Below, piece by piece: positions 8,580 to 60,211 of a DNA stretch of 64,000 nt. Source of the DNA: Alphaproteobacteria bacterium. Lineage in GTDB: Bacteria > Pseudomonadota > Alphaproteobacteria > Rs-D84. Under the pieces are notes generated by a model. The model was given only the letters and a program-made list of their open reading frames with translations. It was not told where the DNA came from and ran no database searches. Location of the stretch: contig JAFVSL010000008.1 of assembly GCA_017503725.1 (NCBI GenBank), positions 62,001 to 126,000 of the forward strand, read 5' to 3'. How positions within the stretch are numbered: the stretch's first letter is position 1; each line of letters starts with the position of its first letter. Made by a program: the position numbers and the translations under genes.

Positions 8580-8863
8580 ATTGAGTTCACAGGGATGTGG
8601 ATTCGGGGCCTTAGAAAAGCTCTTCAGTAGTCGGTGCAAGAAAATGTGTACCGCATCCGCACAGAAAAGTTGGCGCGGAATGCGTCTTTTTTTGTGTTTC
8701 CAACCCGATGTATTTGTGCGATGGTCGCACATACCACTTTCGTGCGTCGGGGTGCCGTCGGTTATACAACAGGGCGCATTGCGCCCGAAAACCGGCGGGG
8801 TCAAAACTATTGTTGATTTTTCTAACACCCCGACCGCCATATTCCCGTGGCGGTGTTTTTATT
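8580..8863 (+). promoter_or_regulatory. Attenuator-like structured 5' leader, copy 1 (long form)
   Basis: The core at about 8592-8622 contains ATTCGGGGCCTTAGAAAAG. An early terminator-like hairpin pairs CGCATCCGC (8652-8660) with GCGG-A-ATGCG (8675-8684), followed by seven T. Local hairpins are TGTGCGA/TCGCACA (about 8715-8732) and GGGCGC/GCGCCC (8772-8786). The switch: CCGTCGGTT (about 8754-8762) can pair with AACCGGCGG, or GGCGGGGT can pair with ACCCCG(A)CC (8827-8835). The second choice overlaps the first two bases of the terminator stem CCGCCA/TGGCGG (8834-8853, then TGTTTTT). The leader ends 15 nt before the 8878 gene. Pairings are read by eye. Confidence 0.75.
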
Positions 8864-8877
8864 GTTTGGGGGAAATG

Positions 8878-9315
8878 ATGCGGAAATTTTTATTGCTGTT
8901 TATGCTAATTACTGTATCGGCAAATGCGGCAACAATGTGCGTGCCGGATTTTTCACAGATGTCTGATAAATGCACAGTTGTTAGTTATACAAAAAATACG
9001 TGGACAGTGAACTGTAATGGGGTTGAGGTTTCTGGAATAGCAATTCCAGGAGAAAACGCATCTACGAGTTTTGTTTATGATATAGAAGAGATTGTTGGCT
9101 TTACGGCGTTCTGCAATTGTTTAATGCAGCATCCGGTTGTGGGACAGTATTTATTGCCATTACCTGACCCCTCTATGTGTAGAGAGTGGTCCGGAATGTC
9201 TTGTGGTCAGTTTTGTGCAAATGTTTTTGTGCCAAGATGTGGGTTTTCTAAGTGTAATCCGTATGCTGACCTGGGGATAAGTTGCACACAAGGATCGGCG
9301 GGGGGCAGTTCATGA
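8878..9315 (+). CDS. Small exported Cys-rich protein, divergent family A
   Basis: The protein has about 145 aa and a signal peptide ending ANA. ATGATG at 8875-8880 gives two possible starts; the GGGGG at 8868-8872 spaces better to 8878. The family A core is relaxed. C-N-C-L replaces C-W-C-Q, followed by M-Q-H-P-V-V, and the last block is C-x7-C-x3-C (CREWSGMSCGQFC). Extra cysteines occur near the end (CGFSKC, ISC). The stop overlaps the next start as ATGA (9312-9315), so it is translationally coupled to 9312. It is the first gene after leader copy 1. Function unknown. Confidence 0.8.
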   Translation: MRKFLLLFMLITVSANAATMCVPDFSQMSDKCTVVSYTKNTWTVNCNGVEVSGIAIPGENASTSFVYDIEEIVGFTAFCNCLMQHPVVGQYLLPLPDPSMCREWSGMSCGQFCANVFVPRCGFSKCNPYADLGISCTQGSAGGSS

Positions 9316-15333: not shown

Positions 15334-15339
15334 TATAAT
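15311..15339 (+). promoter_or_regulatory. Promoter of leader copy 2
   Basis: TTGATA (15311-15316, inside the end of the lnt coding part), 17 nt, TATAAT (15334-15339). Confidence 0.8.
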
Positions 15340-15344
15340 ACAGT

Positions 15345-15532
15345 TTGATATCAGATGTTGTGTCTGGTGTCGGGGGCGTAGAAACCCTTGAAATCGGTGC
15401 CTGGGGCTAAACCAGGTAGAAAAAACTCCAACCATGGGTTGGAGGGTGGTGATATATAAAAATAAGCCCGCTATACCGATTTATAGTTTCTAACCTCCAA
15501 CCACTTGAAAAAGTTTTTCAGTGGTTTTTGTT
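15345..15532 (+). promoter_or_regulatory. Attenuator-like structured 5' leader, copy 2 (short form)
   Basis: Core CGGGGGCGTAGAAACCC at 15371-15387, hairpin CCTGG/CCAGG at 15400-15416. The clearest switch of the six: CTCCAACC (15426-15433) or CCTCCAACC (15494-15502) can pair with the single strand GGTTGGAGG (15437-15445). The downstream partner shares its last two C with the terminator CCAC-T-TGAAAAA/TTTTTCA-GTGG (15501-15524), which is followed by TTTTTG. The three helices are mutually exclusive in the usual anti-antiterminator / antiterminator / terminator sense. The GATATATAAAAATAAGCCC stretch after the G-rich strand is nearly identical in copy 3. SD GGAGGGG and ATG 15551 follow. Confidence 0.8.
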
Positions 15533-15550: not shown

Positions 15551-17233
15551 ATGCGATTTGGTTTGTGTGTGTTTTTGTTGTTTATGTTTTGCTGTCCGGT
15601 GTGGGCAGATGGTTTTACAAATGAATTTACGGATTTTAATACAGCAGAAGCGACACAGGTAATGAATGATGTGATGGGGGCGGTCGCTGGTATCGGTGAT
15701 GATTTCGATGCGGTGCTGGAAAAAGTTCGCAGAATAAATCCAGAATATGCATTTCAAATACAACAAATTGCAGATACAGATGCAACCAAAAATGAGGCGA
15801 TTAATATGTTGTATGGGTGGTTGATGGACTATATTTATGACAAGTATAAAAATATTTTCTTAGACCAATTGAATTCGCGCGGCCAAGAAACAGGTCGACA
15901 GGTTAAAGAAGAAAGCTATGATTTTGGTGGCGATGGAAAAAGTTATGTAAAACACCATAGGCATCATTATTGGTTAGATAGAGGGGTGTTAGATAATAAA
16001 AAATGTAAAGACAAACACGACTTCTTAATTTGTGAATACCCAGACGGATTTGAAGATTTTTTTGCGGTTGAAGACACTGGGGTACTTAATGGATTGGATG
16101 GTAAATCTTTTACTGTTTGGAAAGATGTGCCAAGTGAGAATTACGTGTTGACTTGTGGTTTTGACAAGCAAAAACATTCGATAAATGGTGAAGAAATATC
16201 AGAGTTTAATATACGGTCGCTGAGTTATGAAGATAATGTATTGATGGTAGATTGTCAGACAGAAATATATAATGAGCGTCACGCGCATCGAAATAAAGAG
16301 GTTCAAGATACAAAAAATGGTAAGTATAAGTGTGAATCTGATGGTTCTTGTTCTTATGTTTTTCAGGAGGGGGACGAAATTAAATATCCCAGTGTGATGC
16401 ACCCGGATGCTGTGGTTCAATCTTTTTCTACTGATTTTACCTTGCAGGAAAACATAGTTAAATCATCAGGCAGCAAATCTATTGATCAGGATACATTACA
16501 TGCATTGTGGATGATAGAATTTCAAGAACTGGAAAAGCAGATGAAGGAAATTGCGCCCAAGGTTGTGGTAAGCGTGGCGGATAAAAATGATGTTGAACGA
16601 GAACGGGTATATAAAAACTGGTTGGCGGAACAGGCTGCCAAGGATGCGGTGGCTCAGGCGATTCAAGATATGTACAAGACCAGTCGTGAAACAGGTCGCG
16701 CGATAAAAACATATGATATAAATGGCAGTATTATTGTTGTGAATAAAATAAATGATGACGGTGGAATTTATTGGTTGGATAGGGGATTCTTGGATGAACC
16801 AAAATGTCGGATTGGTGATACAGGGTTTTATAAATGCACGTATCCAAAAAATTATCAAGAAAAACAGCTGATTTTTGAAGTAAGTGATTTTGGAATATCA
16901 ATAAATATGGATGAAGATATTATGCAAGATGGTCAATTACAGCATGTTATCACTGTTGTCGATTTTGATAATAGTAATAATGATGCTTATTTTGATAGTC
17001 ATAAAATAATATATTCAGATTATGATGATTATTATCGTATGCAGTCCGAAGAAAATGAAGTAGCGTTGAAAAATAATGCGTTAAAAAAATTGTCTAAACG
17101 CAATTTGAGAAAAATTCAACAAGAATGTAGTCGCGAAACGTCTGTAAAATCAGATTTGTGTAAAGAGTGGTCTGATGTAGAAATGGCATTGGGGGTAGTA
17201 GATGGTGCCGTGTTTACGGTAGAAGGTATATAA
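15551..17233 (+). CDS. Exported protein with internal duplication (YWLDRG repeat), under leader copy 2
   Basis: The 560-aa protein has a signal peptide about 1-19 (ending VWA). I do not recognise a family. A module occurs twice: at about 110-160 (Q-E-T-G-R-Q-V-K ... H-H-Y-W-L-D-R-G-V-L-D-N-K-K-C ... F-L-I-C-E-Y-P) and at about 375-430 (R-E-T-G-R-A-I-K ... I-Y-W-L-D-R-G-F-L-D-E-P-K-C ... F-Y-K-C-T-Y-P). Each copy is preceded by an Ala/Gln-rich amphipathic helix. The paired cysteines in each module suggest one disulfide per copy. Base composition is more AT-rich than in the housekeeping neighbours. It is followed 1 nt later by 17235, probably in the same transcript. Confidence 0.75.
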   Translation: MRFGLCVFLLFMFCCPVWADGFTNEFTDFNTAEATQVMNDVMGAVAGIGDDFDAVLEKVRRINPEYAFQIQQIADTDATKNEAINMLYGWLMDYIYDKYKNIFLDQLNSRGQETGRQVKEESYDFGGDGKSYVKHHRHHYWLDRGVLDNKKCKDKHDFLICEYPDGFEDFFAVEDTGVLNGLDGKSFTVWKDVPSENYVLTCGFDKQKHSINGEEISEFNIRSLSYEDNVLMVDCQTEIYNERHAHRNKEVQDTKNGKYKCESDGSCSYVFQEGDEIKYPSVMHPDAVVQSFSTDFTLQENIVKSSGSKSIDQDTLHALWMIEFQELEKQMKEIAPKVVVSVADKNDVERERVYKNWLAEQAAKDAVAQAIQDMYKTSRETGRAIKTYDINGSIIVVNKINDDGGIYWLDRGFLDEPKCRIGDTGFYKCTYPKNYQEKQLIFEVSDFGISINMDEDIMQDGQLQHVITVVDFDNSNNDAYFDSHKIIYSDYDDYYRMQSEENEVALKNNALKKLSKRNLRKIQQECSRETSVKSDLCKEWSDVEMALGVVDGAVFTVEGI

Positions 17234-23848: not shown

Positions 23849-24112
23849 TGCCAATGGGGGATTCCATTGGCGGGGTGTCGAAACCCGTTATTGTGATGTT
23901 GTGTTTATGCAACATAGAAATACAGGCATAAATATGAATTTCGGCACCACTGGGTATGTGTGTATTATCCAAGTGGTGTCTTTTTGTATGTGTGCCTGAA
24001 CTTTCCAATCCAACTGGGTTGGAGGGTGGTGATATATATAAATAAGCCCACAATTCACAATAATTGTTTCGAACCTCCAACCACTTGAAAGATCTTTTCG
24101 GTGGTTTTGTTT
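23849..24112 (+). promoter_or_regulatory. Attenuator-like structured 5' leader, copy 3 (long form)
   Basis: Begins with hairpin CCAATGG/CCATTGG (23851-23870), then core GCGGGGTGTCGAAACCC (23870-23886) and hairpin ATGTTG/CAACAT (23896-23915). An early terminator-like stem CACCACT (23945-23951)/AGTGGTG (23972-23978) is followed by TCTTTTT. The switch strand GGTTGGAGG (24017-24025) can pair with upstream CCAAC (24010-24014) or with CCTCCAACC (24074-24082). The latter overlaps terminator CCACTTGAAAG/CTTTTCGGTGG (24081-24104), followed by TTTTG. The region from GGTTGGAGG to the terminator is very close to copy 2. The family A gene at 24139 follows. Confidence 0.8.
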
Positions 24113-24138: not shown

Positions 24139-24606
24139 ATGAAAAAAATTATTTTTTTGTGCAGCGTATGTTTGTGCGTTCCAGTGAATGCAGCCGAAAA
24201 ATGTGTGGCGCTGGGGGCGAGTTATGAGTGTGGACCTACTTATAACAGTGATTGTGATCCAATGACTTATGGTCAATGTAATACAGCAGATTATAGTTTG
24301 GATGATCCATATGGTCCTACGGTAGATGTTGCGTTGATAGGTGTATGTGCCATAGAAAGTCGTAGTGATGGGGAGGCTCTTCATCGTGTTAATACAGCGG
24401 TTTGGAATGATAGTTATGAGATTGTAGATGCTTACAATTGTTGGTGTAAAATGATAAGACCTGTGATTAGTTCCTTTGTTTATTACACCTCTTATGTTGA
24501 TGTTGAAAACTGCTGGGCGGTTTGTGGAGATGCATGTTCAAACTATTTATATGGTGAAAATGCCTTAAATGTATTTTTTGAAAATATAGATAATAATAAC
24601 TGGTAA
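24139..24606 (+). CDS. Small exported Cys-rich protein, family A (CWC type)
   Basis: The 155-aa protein has a signal peptide about 1-19 (ending VNA). ATG 24139 has GGGGG upstream; the longer frame extends back into the leader terminator and is rejected. The family A core is I-G-V-C-A, N-C-W-C-K-M-I-R-P-V-I-S and C-x3-C-x3-C (CWAVCGDAC). Extra cysteines lie in the N-terminal third (KC, YEC, DC, QC). The C-terminus is Asn-rich. First of two genes after leader copy 3; the family B partner starts 6 nt downstream. Confidence 0.82.
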   Translation: MKKIIFLCSVCLCVPVNAAEKCVALGASYECGPTYNSDCDPMTYGQCNTADYSLDDPYGPTVDVALIGVCAIESRSDGEALHRVNTAVWNDSYEIVDAYNCWCKMIRPVISSFVYYTSYVDVENCWAVCGDACSNYLYGENALNVFFENIDNNNW

Positions 24607-28159: not shown

Positions 28160-28164
28160 TGATG

Positions 28165-28418
28165 TGAATCCAACAGGGATGTTGGCTTCGGGGACGTAAG
28201 AAATCCTTTAAGAAAGCGATGCGTCATTATTCGCATTGGAATCCGACCTGGGACAAAAAAACTGGCGCGGATGCGCTTTTTATTTTGTCTGATTTTTCCC
28301 GATTGCGGTCGGGGGGCCTGTGGCTATATAACAGCGCGTATGCGTAAAGGCCACAGGGGTCATTCTTTCTTATGATTTTCTTAACCCCCTGGCCACCAAT
28401 TTATTTGGTGGTTTTTGT
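28165..28418 (+). promoter_or_regulatory. Attenuator-like structured 5' leader, copy 4 (long form)
   Basis: Core TTCGGGGACGTAAGAAATCC at 28187-28206. ATGCG (28219-28223) and a second ATGCG (28271-28275, followed by CTTTTT) compete for CGCAT (28232-28236), forming an early switch. The second switch: GCCTGTGG (about 28316-28323) or CCCCCTGGCC (28385-28394) can pair with GGCCACAGGGG (28349-28359), the latter with a 2-nt bulge. The downstream option overlaps terminator CCACCAA/TTGGTGG (28393-28411), followed by TTTTTG. Sequence between the modules (TGGCGCGG-TGCG-TTTTT) is shared with copy 1. The YadA-like gene at 28446 follows, so the leader is not tied to a single protein family. Confidence 0.78.
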
Positions 28419-28445
28419 TTAACAAAAATACAAAGGGAAAAGAAA

Positions 28446-29096
28446 ATGAAAAAAATCTTTCTGGGTGGCGCATTGTGCGCAATTATGACAGCACCAGCAT
28501 TTGCAACATACGGTACAGAAATGAATACCACGTTGGATGATGCACGTGCGGCAATTGAACGTATCGATAATTCGTGGGATGCAATGCGTGATTTGCGTGT
28601 AGCGCTGAATGGCAGTTCTGATCCAATGACAGACCTGGTGGCGTGGGCAAAAACAGAAAACACAACATCTGCGTATGAAAACGAAACGGATAATATCGGT
28701 GTGGTAAATGGCATTATCAATGATACAGCCTTTATTATGCAGGGATACTATACCAATGCGGTATTGGCAAATGATGCAATTGCGGCAAACGCAGATGCAA
28801 TCGCATTAAACAGTGCGGCAATTTCGAGACTAGAAAACACGGTCAGTGATATCGAAAAAGATTTGTCGGCCGGTATTGCAAGTGTGGCGGCATTGTCTTC
28901 GGTTGCGGTATCTGATGTTGCCCGTGGCGAGGTATCTGTGGGTGGTGGCTATGGATATCATAATGGCGAATCGGCGGCCGCGTTTGGATTTGCGATTGGT
29001 TTAACAGATAACTGGTCGATGAATGCAGGTGCCGGAATTTCCAGTGCAGATACAACGTTCCGCGCAGGTACGAATTACAAGTTCAAGTTGTTTTAA
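28446..29096 (+). CDS. Small trimeric autotransporter (YadA-anchor) protein
   Basis: The 216-aa protein has a signal peptide about 1-20 (AFA). The central part is helical and Ala/Asn-rich (ANDAIAANADAIALNSAAIS-type heptads), matching a coiled-coil stalk. The C-terminal roughly 60 residues form the four-stranded YadA anchor (VSVGGGYGYHNG, AAFGFAIGLTDNWSMNAG, FRAGTNYKFKLF) and end in Phe. In the family three such anchors make a 12-strand barrel displaying the stalk. There is almost no head domain, so this is a minimal adhesin. It is under leader copy 4. Confidence 0.82.
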   Translation: MKKIFLGGALCAIMTAPAFATYGTEMNTTLDDARAAIERIDNSWDAMRDLRVALNGSSDPMTDLVAWAKTENTTSAYENETDNIGVVNGIINDTAFIMQGYYTNAVLANDAIAANADAIALNSAAISRLENTVSDIEKDLSAGIASVAALSSVAVSDVARGEVSVGGGYGYHNGESAAAFGFAIGLTDNWSMNAGAGISSADTTFRAGTNYKFKLF

Positions 29097-41241: not shown

Positions 41242-41270
41242 TTGCCATAATATATAAAAACTAATATAAT
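41242..41270 (+). promoter_or_regulatory. Promoter of leader copy 5
   Basis: TTGCCA (41242-41247), 17 nt, TATAAT (41265-41270). Confidence 0.8.
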
Positions 41271-41275
41271 TGGTA

Positions 41276-41453
41276 TGAATCACTTGGATGGTTCGGGGTG
41301 TCGTAACCCTTATAAAATGGCGTCCGTAGGGACGGTAAAGGACTCCTGCAATACAAAAAAGGCAGGAGGGTCCGTGTTATATATTGAAGGCACGGCACTA
41401 TTTCCATTTTAATAGTTACGAACCTCCTGCCACCGGATTTGGTGGTTTTTTCT
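41276..41453 (+). promoter_or_regulatory. Attenuator-like structured 5' leader, copy 5 (short form)
   Basis: Core GGTTCGGGGTGTCGTAACCC (41290-41309). Hairpin CGTCC GTAG GGACG at 41321-41334. Switch: CTCCTGC (41343-41349) or CCTCCTGCC (41423-41431) can pair with GGCAGGAGG (41361-41369). The downstream partner shares two bases with terminator CCACC/GGTGG (41430-41445), followed by six T. The switch strands differ in sequence from copy 2 (CCTGC against CCAAC) while pairing is kept on all three strands, which is compensatory change. Confidence 0.82.
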
Positions 41454-41477: not shown

Positions 41478-42086
41478 GTGAAAAAGATTCTTATATTTGG
41501 TTGCTTGATAATGTCGGTGGTAATTTTTGATACAAAGGCTGGGCGGTGGTTGACGCCGTGTACGATGTATAGTGTGAATGATGGATATGAGGTTAATAAC
41601 TATTATGGGACCAGTTGTATGTTGATTGAAGATATAGAATATAATGGTGTTTTATGTTCGGATGTTTTAGATGATAGTGACTGGGATGGTTTTTTGTGGA
41701 CCATAGATGATATTAATACCGATTGTAATATTGTTATTGATGTGGATGCGGGTATGTATGGAACTTTGAGCGTTTCAGAGAATGCAGATGTTAATTTTTA
41801 TGAATCGGATTGTACCGATGGATATTGTCCCGGGGTGAATATATCGGTTAGTTATGGGGATATATATGCGTCGGTACAAGAATCGGGGACTTTTTTTAAT
41901 CAGTATGGATTAGAGTCTTGCCCAGGAACGGATTTTGATTGCGTTGATGGATATTGTGGAAGTGTATATTCAGACTATAATTCAACATCTGCATCAGATT
42001 GTTGGTTTGAAGATTATGATGGTGGCGTGTACGCAGATGCAAGTGGTAGGTTTTTATTAAATGGAACTTGCTTTTATGAAGAGTGA
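41478..42086 (+). CDS. Exported Cys-rich acidic protein with family B-like C-terminus
   Basis: The 202-aa protein starts at GTG with GGGGGCG upstream and has a signal peptide about 1-21 (ending KA). The mature part is strongly acidic (many D/E and Y) with about a dozen cysteines, often in D-G-Y-C-[PG] units (TDGYCPG, VDGYCGS). The end reads D-C-W-F-E-D-Y-D-G-G-V-Y-A-D-A-S-G-R-F, then N-G-T-C. This aligns with the family B block C-x-M-Y-A...Y-x-D-x-x-G-x-Y/F...C. It is the only gene under leader copy 5. Function unknown. Confidence 0.75.
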   Translation: MKKILIFGCLIMSVVIFDTKAGRWLTPCTMYSVNDGYEVNNYYGTSCMLIEDIEYNGVLCSDVLDDSDWDGFLWTIDDINTDCNIVIDVDAGMYGTLSVSENADVNFYESDCTDGYCPGVNISVSYGDIYASVQESGTFFNQYGLESCPGTDFDCVDGYCGSVYSDYNSTSASDCWFEDYDGGVYADASGRFLLNGTCFYEE

Positions 42087-42166: not shown

Positions 42167-42242
42167 GGATGCGTAGCTCAGTTGGTAGAGCAACTGACTC
42201 TTAATCAGTGGGTCCAGGGTTCGAGTCCCTGCGCGTCCACCA
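42167..42242 (+). tRNA. tRNA-Lys (anticodon CUU)
   Basis: Acceptor GGATGCG/CGCGTCC (one T-G pair), D-arm GTAGCTCAGTTGGTAGAGC, anticodon loop CTCTTAA within ACTGA/TCAGT, T-arm with GGTTCGAGTCC and an encoded CCA. Anticodon CTT reads AAG. Confidence 0.97.
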
Positions 42243-42271
42243 GAAATAAACGGTCACGGTGTGGCCGTTTT
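42235..42271 (+). repeat. Direct repeat: tRNA-Lys 3' end plus terminator, first copy
   Basis: GTCCACCAGAAATAAACGG and the following terminator stem CGGTCAC/GTGGCCG with T-run form a 37-bp block repeated exactly at 42421-42457. Confidence 0.85.
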
Positions 42272-42420
42272 TTTATGGTGTTGGACCAAGCGGACGAGAA
42301 CCCGTAAAAGGGTTCGGAACGCCAGTTGACGAGAACAAGCGTATGCGCCGTTCGAGTCTTACGTAGTGAATGGGGCCCATAGAGCGAATGCGAATATGGG
42401 GATTTACAGTCCCAAGCCAA
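42272..42420 (+). other. Unexplained 149-bp insert between tRNA-Lys 3'-end repeats
   Basis: This stretch contains GACGAGAAC twice, hairpin GAACCCGTAAAAGGGTTC, a T-loop-like GTTCGAGTC (about 42351-42359) and a weak T-arm-like GGGGATTTACAGTCCC just before the second repeat. No complete cloverleaf can be folded by eye, and no coding frame is credible. It may be a decayed second tRNA from a tandem duplication, or a scar of an element that used the tRNA 3' end as an attachment site. Confidence 0.4.
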
Positions 42421-42457
42421 GTCCACCAGAAATAAACGGTCACGGTGTGGCCGTTTT
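42421..42457 (+). repeat. Direct repeat: tRNA-Lys 3' end plus terminator, second copy
   Basis: Exact second copy of 42235-42271, including CCA and the transcription terminator, 186 bp downstream. From here to 42586 there is only AT-rich upstream sequence of the next gene. Confidence 0.85.
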
Positions 42458-42586
42458 TCATTTCTTATCCTTTGATACTTTCCCCAGGGATTCATACCTA
42501 TGCAAATATTTATATTCGATTGATAGAATTAGGGTGTTGACATGAAACGAAAAACACAAAAAACAAAATCTATAAAAGGAGAGAAA

Positions 42587-59335: not shown

Positions 59336-59425
59336 AGTGATTAGTGTAAGTGGTTAGTGGATAGTGTTTGTATGCGGCAAATGCCGCACATTATAGTGCC
59401 ATCACTAACCACTAATCACTAAGAT
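59336..59425. repeat. Palindromic intergenic repeat, copy R2 (partner at 2435)
   Basis: Arms AGTGATTAGTG-taa-GTGGTTAGTGG and CACTAACCACTAATCACT are close to perfect inverted repeats. The tip is TGCGGCAAATGCCGCA. The following ACTAAGATAAACTTTT matches R1, but the second hairpin is broken here (TTATTTTTC). It has the same flanks as R1: ATCCCGCG terminator before, Cys-rich cluster after. Confidence 0.75.
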
Positions 59426-59447
59426 AAACTTTTATTTTTCTTCGTCG

Positions 59448-59476
59448 TTGCGTTGGATGAAATATTTGGTTATAAT
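59448..59476 (+). promoter_or_regulatory. Promoter of leader copy 6
   Basis: TTGCGT (59448-59453), 17 nt, TATAAT (59471-59476). Confidence 0.75.
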
Positions 59477-59481
59477 TTGTT

Positions 59482-59711
59482 TGTTATGATCGATGGTCAT
59501 AATGGGGTGTAGAGACCCGTTGCACAAAGCGTCTGTGGAGCGAAATCCAATGGCGCGCCGTACGTTGGCGTGTTTTTTGTATCTGATTCATGGACGAAAA
59601 AAAACTCCTGGCATTATCGTCAGGAGGGCTTGCGAATATATTGAATAAGCAGCACAATTCTTTGTGATTGTCTCTAACCTCCTGACCACCGCGTTTATGC
59701 AGTGGTTTTTA
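59482..59711 (+). promoter_or_regulatory. Attenuator-like structured 5' leader, copy 6 (long form)
   Basis: Core ATAATGGGGTGTAGAGACCC (59499-59518). An early terminator-like stem CGCGCC (59554-59559)/GGCGTG (59567-59572) is followed by six T. The switch strand GTCAGGAGG (59619-59627) can pair with upstream CTCCTG (59605-59610) or with CCTCCTGAC (59678-59686). The latter touches terminator CCAC/GTGG (59686-59705, T-run after). The segment GAATATATTGAATAAGC after the switch strand resembles copies 2, 3 and 5. The two-A, one-B cluster starts at 59738. Confidence 0.8.
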
Positions 59712-59737
59712 CTTGTAAAAAAAGGGAGAAAAAGACA

Positions 59738-60211
59738 ATGAAAAAACTTTTAACCTTAACCGCGGTTGGTGCGATGTTTACGCAATCACTGTGGGGTGGG
59801 GTATACCAATGTCAGTCGCCTGTTATATATTCCGTACAAGAACTCGAGGCTTTTACATCGCCAATGTCTGCGATACGGACGTTGGCTGGGATCGATCCAT
59901 ATAATAACAGAGGCGTTAGAATTTTGCTTCAGGGGCGTTGCGCGTCAAATACGGACAGTGGCCCTTATATACTTGAAATTAACCAGTTGGAACTTACGAC
60001 TAGTACGGACCCCACGAATTGTTGGTGTCAAATTATATATCCTTATTTTTCGCAATTTGTATATCTGCCCGTTACATTACCTGTGGAAACGACAAGTGCC
60101 TGTGTGGATGCCTGTTCTAGGGAGTGTGCAAATAAAATTTTGGAATATGGCTATATTGATATGGCGGATTATCCACCATCGGAAATTATTTATATGGTAG
60201 AGGGATTATAA
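59738..60211 (+). CDS. Small exported Cys-rich protein, family A (CWC type)
   Basis: The 157-aa protein has a signal peptide about 1-19. The core is L-Q-G-R-C-A, N-C-W-C-Q-I-I-Y-P-Y-F-S and C-x3-C-x3-C (CVDACSREC), with the P-P-S-E-I-I-Y-M tail similar to the 3236 protein. ATG 59738 with GGGAG upstream is chosen; the longer frame starts inside the leader terminator T-run. First gene after leader copy 6. Confidence 0.85.
   Translation: MKKLLTLTAVGAMFTQSLWGGVYQCQSPVIYSVQELEAFTSPMSAIRTLAGIDPYNNRGVRILLQGRCASNTDSGPYILEINQLELTTSTDPTNCWCQIIYPYFSQFVYLPVTLPVETTSACVDACSRECANKILEYGYIDMADYPPSEIIYMVEGL

Follow-up and report, generated by a model that had tools for sequence, protein, structure and literature searches.

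C4-type antisense RNAs are parts of phage immunity systems. In the annotated record of phage P1, the elements follow the order a1, b1, C4, a2, b2, icd, and the C4 RNA of this phage has a three-hairpin structure, an RNase P cut at the 5' end of the stem and arms whose function has been described (PMC5320573). A second RNA, sRNA-Xcc1 (RF02221), was found experimentally and its function is uncertain. It has been reported next to symE (PMC12444791) and, in a single genome, alongside C4 RNAs (PMC12189769), in the passages concerned without a C4-type label.

Here it is proposed, with a probability of about 0.72, that a family of leader RNAs in a gut alphaproteobacterium consists of C4-type leaders turned into self-keyed transcription attenuators for the gene behind them, each with its own promoter and terminated by default. 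A protein-based scan of named genomes assigned the source genome (997,752 bases in 13 contigs) to the genus Candidatus Enterousia, a gut lineage of the order Rs-D84 with reduced genomes and a probable dependence on partners (PMC12306168), and the window, the whole stretch of 64,000 nucleotides analysed, is part of it. A covariance model with seven copies as input was run on this genome and on others. In the own genome it returned 45 rows at E ≤ 10, 30 of them at E < 1e-10; the last few of the 45 are chance matches, and about 39 copies were judged real by eye. Every one of the 34 further Enterousia genomes searched contains matches (1–48 per genome), with weaker matches in some genomes of the order Rs-D84 and in six genomes from other families of the class. 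The leader called copy 2 is thus one member of a multi-copy leader-RNA family, with matches far above chance. Each leader is roughly 165–260 nt long, and the window holds six of them, namely copies 2, 3, 5 and 6 of type A and copies 1 and 4 of a second subtype, type B.

From 5' to 3', type A leaders present a TATAAT box, hairpin H1 with a1 in its loop, b1, a variable region, the strands P2a and P2b, hairpins P3 and P4, a', the strand P2a', an intrinsic terminator and the gene. A perfect TATAAT lies 30–36 nt 5' of H1 in the 22 of 22 copies tested. The a1 element is a hairpin-loop 7-mer and the neighbouring b1 a 7–8-mer, and their partners a' and b' stand just 5' of a CCTCC strand. P3 contains an AU-rich internal loop, the loop of P4 holds b', and the terminator stem shares bases with P2a'; in type B copies P3 is longer, with ATACAACA/GAAA. 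As in attenuators, a terminator hairpin with a U-run lies between promoter and gene and competes with an alternative stem.

All leader copies of the window and the genes behind them are on the + strand. In copy 2 the -10 box TATAAT (15334–15339) is followed by a1 (TAGAAAC, 15379–15385) in the H1 loop and by b1 (AAATCGGT, 15391–15398), whose respective partners, identified by covariation, are a' (GTTTCTA, 15486–15492), immediately 5' of the 3' strand of the stem, and b' (ACCGATTT, 15475–15482), inside the P4 loop. Between the arms are P2a (CTCCAACC, 15426–15433), the upstream alternative partner for the G-rich strand; P2b (GGTTGGAGG, 15437–15445), which is the shared strand and the 5' strand of the C4-type stem; and the P3 hairpin with its AU-rich internal loop (15451–15465). 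P2a' (CCTCCAACC, 15494–15502), the 3' strand of the C4-type stem, shares bases with the stem of the terminator (AACCACT...AGTGGTTTTT, 15499–15529), and the gene behind it encodes a 560-aa protein with a signal-like N-terminal sequence (15551–17233).

Copy 1 (8585–8860; a1 8611–8618, P2b from 8746, a' 8817–8825, P2a' 8826–8834, terminator to 8860) precedes a gene for a secreted Cys-rich protein (8875–9315), as does copy 3 (23866–24112; a1 23878–23884, b1 23888–23895, P2a from 24004, P2b 24017–24025, b' 24056–24063, a' 24066–24072, P2a' 24074–24082, terminator to 24108; gene 24139–24606). Copy 4 (28160–28420; a1 28197–28204, b1 28209–28216, P2b 28307–28316, b' 28365–28372, a' 28375–28383, P2a' 28385–28394, terminator to 28416), on which RF02221 scores 40.3 bits, lies before a gene for a YadA-like anchor protein (28446–29096). 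Copy 5, with its -10 box included (41265–41453; a1 41301–41307, b1 41314–41320, P2a 41343–41349, P2b 41361–41369, b' 41404–41410, a' 41415–41421, P2a' 41423–41431, terminator to 41451), is followed by a gene for a 202-aa protein with a signal-like N-terminus (41478–42086). Beyond that gene, the 3' end of a tRNA-Lys and its terminator (42235–42272) are repeated exactly 186 nt downstream (42421–42458), which resembles the outcome of element integration at a tRNA. Copy 6, also with its -10 box (59471–59713; a1 59510–59516, b1 59523–59529, P2a from 59605, P2b 59619–59627, b' 59660–59666, a' 59670–59676, P2a' 59678–59686, terminator to 59710), precedes another gene for a secreted Cys-rich protein (59738–60211). 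An intergenic stretch around GCCGCACAT and CTAACCACTAATCACTAAGATAAACTTTT occurs twice in the window, 57 kb apart (2448–2559 and 59348–59445), the second occurrence directly 5' of copy 6.

Secreted Cys-rich proteins of roughly 135–170 aa, with no Pfam matches, are encoded behind about 22 copies, and behind the others come genes for a YadA-like protein, for small HTH proteins, for a PAP2 protein and for unknown products. For the search profile of the Cys-rich proteins a closer set was used, an alignment of 15 being too diverse. At least 33 Cys-rich loci in other species have the leader RNA shortly upstream. A relative of the secreted Cys-rich protein is also found on a contig of a viral collection (IMGVR_UViG_3300028797_006173, L206), on which the leader-RNA model has no matches.

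The private character of the arms was measured with a1 located by the H1 anchor and a' by the CCTCC anchor, pairing being used to place neither. On this basis, a1 and a' pair at 7 of 7 positions in 45 of 49 copies, compared with 9.6% of cross pairs, and the mean number of paired positions is 6.78 versus 5.16 in cross pairs, a value that none of 10,000 shuffles reached. Copy 2 is one of the four exceptions by anchor; read directly, it also pairs 7/7. The mean longest run of b1:b' is 6.5 versus 4.2, again with 0/10,000 shuffles as high. With both arms combined, the own genome gives self matches in 21/23 and cross matches in 4/506, so the keys of copies within one genome are near-orthogonal, but drift of a paired structure also yields private keys, and orthogonality alone is therefore no proof of selection for specificity. 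In one copy (L024, G000:C3:97102–97217, - strand), a' (GTAGTCA) mismatches its own a1 (TCAGAAC) and fits the a1 of another copy, L038; this copy looks like a mosaic of two.

The three strands P2a, P2b and P2a', which the preliminary description had singled out in copy 2, were read directly at the places it gave, and their joint change in copy 5 was likewise found at the equivalent strands. The compensatory change that it claimed is borne out by three variable triplets that are concordant in 56 of 69 copies from the own genome and other species. The concordant sets (30 TGA/TGA/TGA, 25 AAC/AAC/AAC and 1 TGC/TGC/TGC) represent few independent events, namely two main haplotypes plus TGC, to which type B copies and other families of the class add further changes. 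Covariation is richer in the a1:a' and b1:b' arms, which the preliminary description had missed, than in the three-strand set.

Two states of the core were compared in 31 type A copies of the own genome. The C4-type stem (P2b:P2a') has 9–11 bp and P2a:P2b has 7–10 bp. The observation in the preliminary description that the downstream strand overlaps or touches the terminator stem holds in all 31 foldable copies, with 3–6 nt shared. The terminator stem has on average 9.3 bp with P2a:P2b paired and 4.0 bp with P2b:P2a' paired, and the states differ by a mean of 2.2 kcal/mol, P2a:P2b plus terminator being preferred in 28/31; these energies are those of the core, since the C4-type stem together with arm pairing is a pseudoknot, beyond nested folding. 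The attenuator logic previously put forward is thus supported by the weakening of the terminator and the closeness of the two states, at about 2 kcal/mol, with the qualification that the downstream-paired state keeps 4–7 terminator bp in about two thirds of the copies and the exclusion is therefore partial. Unconstrained folds of full leaders contain the long-range arm pairing in 21/22, and in the two such folds printed (L012 and L023) P2a:P2b and the terminator are also formed. Since P2b:P2a' crosses the arm pairing, arm pairing in cis should favour termination.

The relationship to known RNA families was examined with Rfam models. RF01695 (C4 antisense RNA) has no matches in the own genome at E ≤ 10. 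RF02221 scores 39–40 bits on type B and about 34 bits on type A, and no copy of the family reaches its gathering score of 53 bits, the best being about 40 bits; the four RF02221 matches of the own genome at E ≤ 1 all fall on members of the family, and a chance match was dropped as an explanation for this reason. As in RF02221, the leaders have the core stem, the P3 loop AATACAA..GAATA, P4 and an a' adjoining the 3' strand, with the apical part shortened in type A. The internal loop AATA..GAATA is found in 25/33 type A and 14/22 RF02221 cores, compared with 0.87 and 0.07 expected from shuffles. In the reverse search, the type A model gave only one in-register match (E 0.17) and one other match (E 1.1) among RF02221 loci. 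A hairpin with a U-run between b1 and the core is present in 11/22 RF02221 loci and 9/68 Enterousia-type leaders (controls 3/132 and 2/249), which is no more than suggestive of a feature common to both groups.

Among 398 Pseudomonadota genomes, 57 have RF02221 matches at E ≤ 0.001. RF02221 loci with full flanks number 22; in these, a'/b' match upstream targets in 86–100% and targets further downstream, close to the start codon, in about 70%, versus 13–29% in cross comparisons, and 9 of the 10 downstream proteins scanned match the SymE, Bro-N, KilA-N, P22_AR_N or Rha families. This layout and the antirepressor and symE genes behind it link sRNA-Xcc1 to the C4 class. In the Enterousia copies, a'/b' are also complementary to an upstream a1/b1, and matches to a2/b2 near the start of the downstream gene occur at control level only. 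One RF02221 locus (L086, 1501–1640) combines a2/b2 with a hairpin that has TTTT behind it, and is possibly intermediate between the phage and the Enterousia arrangements. At another locus (L089, 2890–2958), a c4-2 (RF02944) match of 34.8 bits, below the cut-off, lies about 1.3 kb from an sRNA-Xcc1 element. The presence of P2a is not significant in RF02221 loci; P2a was therefore not accepted as typical of the C4 class at large and must be a later addition. In the P1 leader, a possible ACGCCC/GGGGCGT pair was noted by eye. From these comparisons we infer that the Enterousia leaders descend from a phage C4-type RNA of the sRNA-Xcc1 branch, a descent that is based on layout plus weak sequence similarity, since the RF02221 matches are sub-threshold and RF01695 has none. 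sRNA-Xcc1 is located in integron cassettes, and an integron attC was considered because of this; the leader strands, compared by eye, do not fit the attC core-site consensus.

The leader family looks functional, C4-type by its layout and an attenuator by its output. In the proposed default fold, a1/b1 would pair with a'/b' of the same transcript and P2a would hold P2b, leaving the 3' strand unpaired, so that the intrinsic terminator would form and most transcripts would therefore stop. In the other fold, P2b would pair with P2a' into the C4-type stem, which would take 3–6 nt of the terminator stem, free the arms and favour read-through. Because every locus has arms of its own, a copy would respond only to RNA with its own key, whether in its nascent strand or in RNA that it has released. 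We infer default termination in the cell, and this direction of control, from the modelled folds. It is a more tentative extension that, in this genome-reduced gut bacterium, dozens of orthogonally keyed C4-derived leaders choose, locus by locus, which secreted proteins are made, a part of phage immunity having become a host system.

A possible but less probable explanation is a classical C4 network in trans, in which copies that are terminated or cleaved by RNase P release C4-like sRNAs. The C4 RNA of P1 works in trans and undergoes processing at the 5' end of the stem (PMC5320573). For sRNA-Xcc1, end mapping gave an 88-nt RNA (PMC2996969), and the 87-position RF02221 model starts at the equivalent stem. 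The targets, with similar doubt, would be a1/b1 of transcripts of the same locus or of a few cross-matching loci, with either repression or induction as the result; the four cross-matching pairs and the L024 arm that fits L038 are in line with this. However, a2/b2 targets near start codons are lacking in Enterousia, and cross matches between keys are rare in the own genome (4/506), so a broad trans network is unlikely. It is improbable that the leaders are constitutive structures, serving mRNA stability or a recombination that shuffles the secreted-protein family, with no switching. The mosaic appearance of L024 and the repeated, dispersed nature of the family agree with such shuffling; however, three alternative strands co-vary, private arms are maintained, and all type A copies that were folded have a terminator ahead of the gene, which would be costly if never bypassed.

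The preliminary description had read the arrangement as a riboswitch or protein-dependent attenuator; such a reading, in which the P3 internal loop would be the binding site of a metabolite or protein, is very unlikely. That loop is conserved, and a terminator and an alternative pairing are present; however, about 40 copies precede unrelated secreted, HTH and PAP2 proteins with no common pathway, and the copies are built like C4-type antisense leaders, with variable, locus-specific complementary arms, unlike a conserved ligand pocket. The riboswitch models of Rfam 15 have no matches on the leader elements, and T-box and known riboswitches were ruled out on these grounds. A metabolite riboswitch is therefore probably not the correct reading of the family, and a protein may be bound at P3.

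Under the preferred reading, that of a self-keyed attenuator, what appears to be a C4-type phage immunity RNA has acquired a terminator and a role in host gene control, and a genome of 1 Mb carries about 40 such copies, matched and near-orthogonal; sRNA-Xcc1 gains a link to the C4 class. If true, the family would be a collection of orthogonal antisense attenuators made by nature, and would help to explain how partner-dependent, reduced-genome gut bacteria control their secreted proteins. With classical attenuators based on antiterminator/terminator exchange the leaders share alternative stems beside an intrinsic terminator; however, they use locus-specific long-range arms and not a leader peptide or a ligand aptamer. 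The C4-like Group 1 sRNAs of Acinetobacter baumannii (PMC5320573) are similar in that many C4-type RNAs with variable a' arms occur per genome, but they are described there as sRNAs with no stated leader role, whereas those of Enterousia are gene leaders with a terminator. With sRNA-Xcc1 (RF02221) they have in common the a1/b1 layout and the AATA..GAATA loop, together with sub-threshold matches confined to the family in the own genome; in contrast to Enterousia, which lacks a2/b2, RF02221 loci mostly keep these at the ribosome site, ahead of antirepressor, Rha or symE genes. The C4 of P1/P7 (RF01695) has the same a1, b1, core stem, two inner hairpins, b' in a loop and a' beside the 3' strand (PMC5320573), whereas the Enterousia leaders, with no RF01695 match and no a2/b2, have a terminator and P2a and lie mostly before genes for secreted proteins instead of icd/ant.
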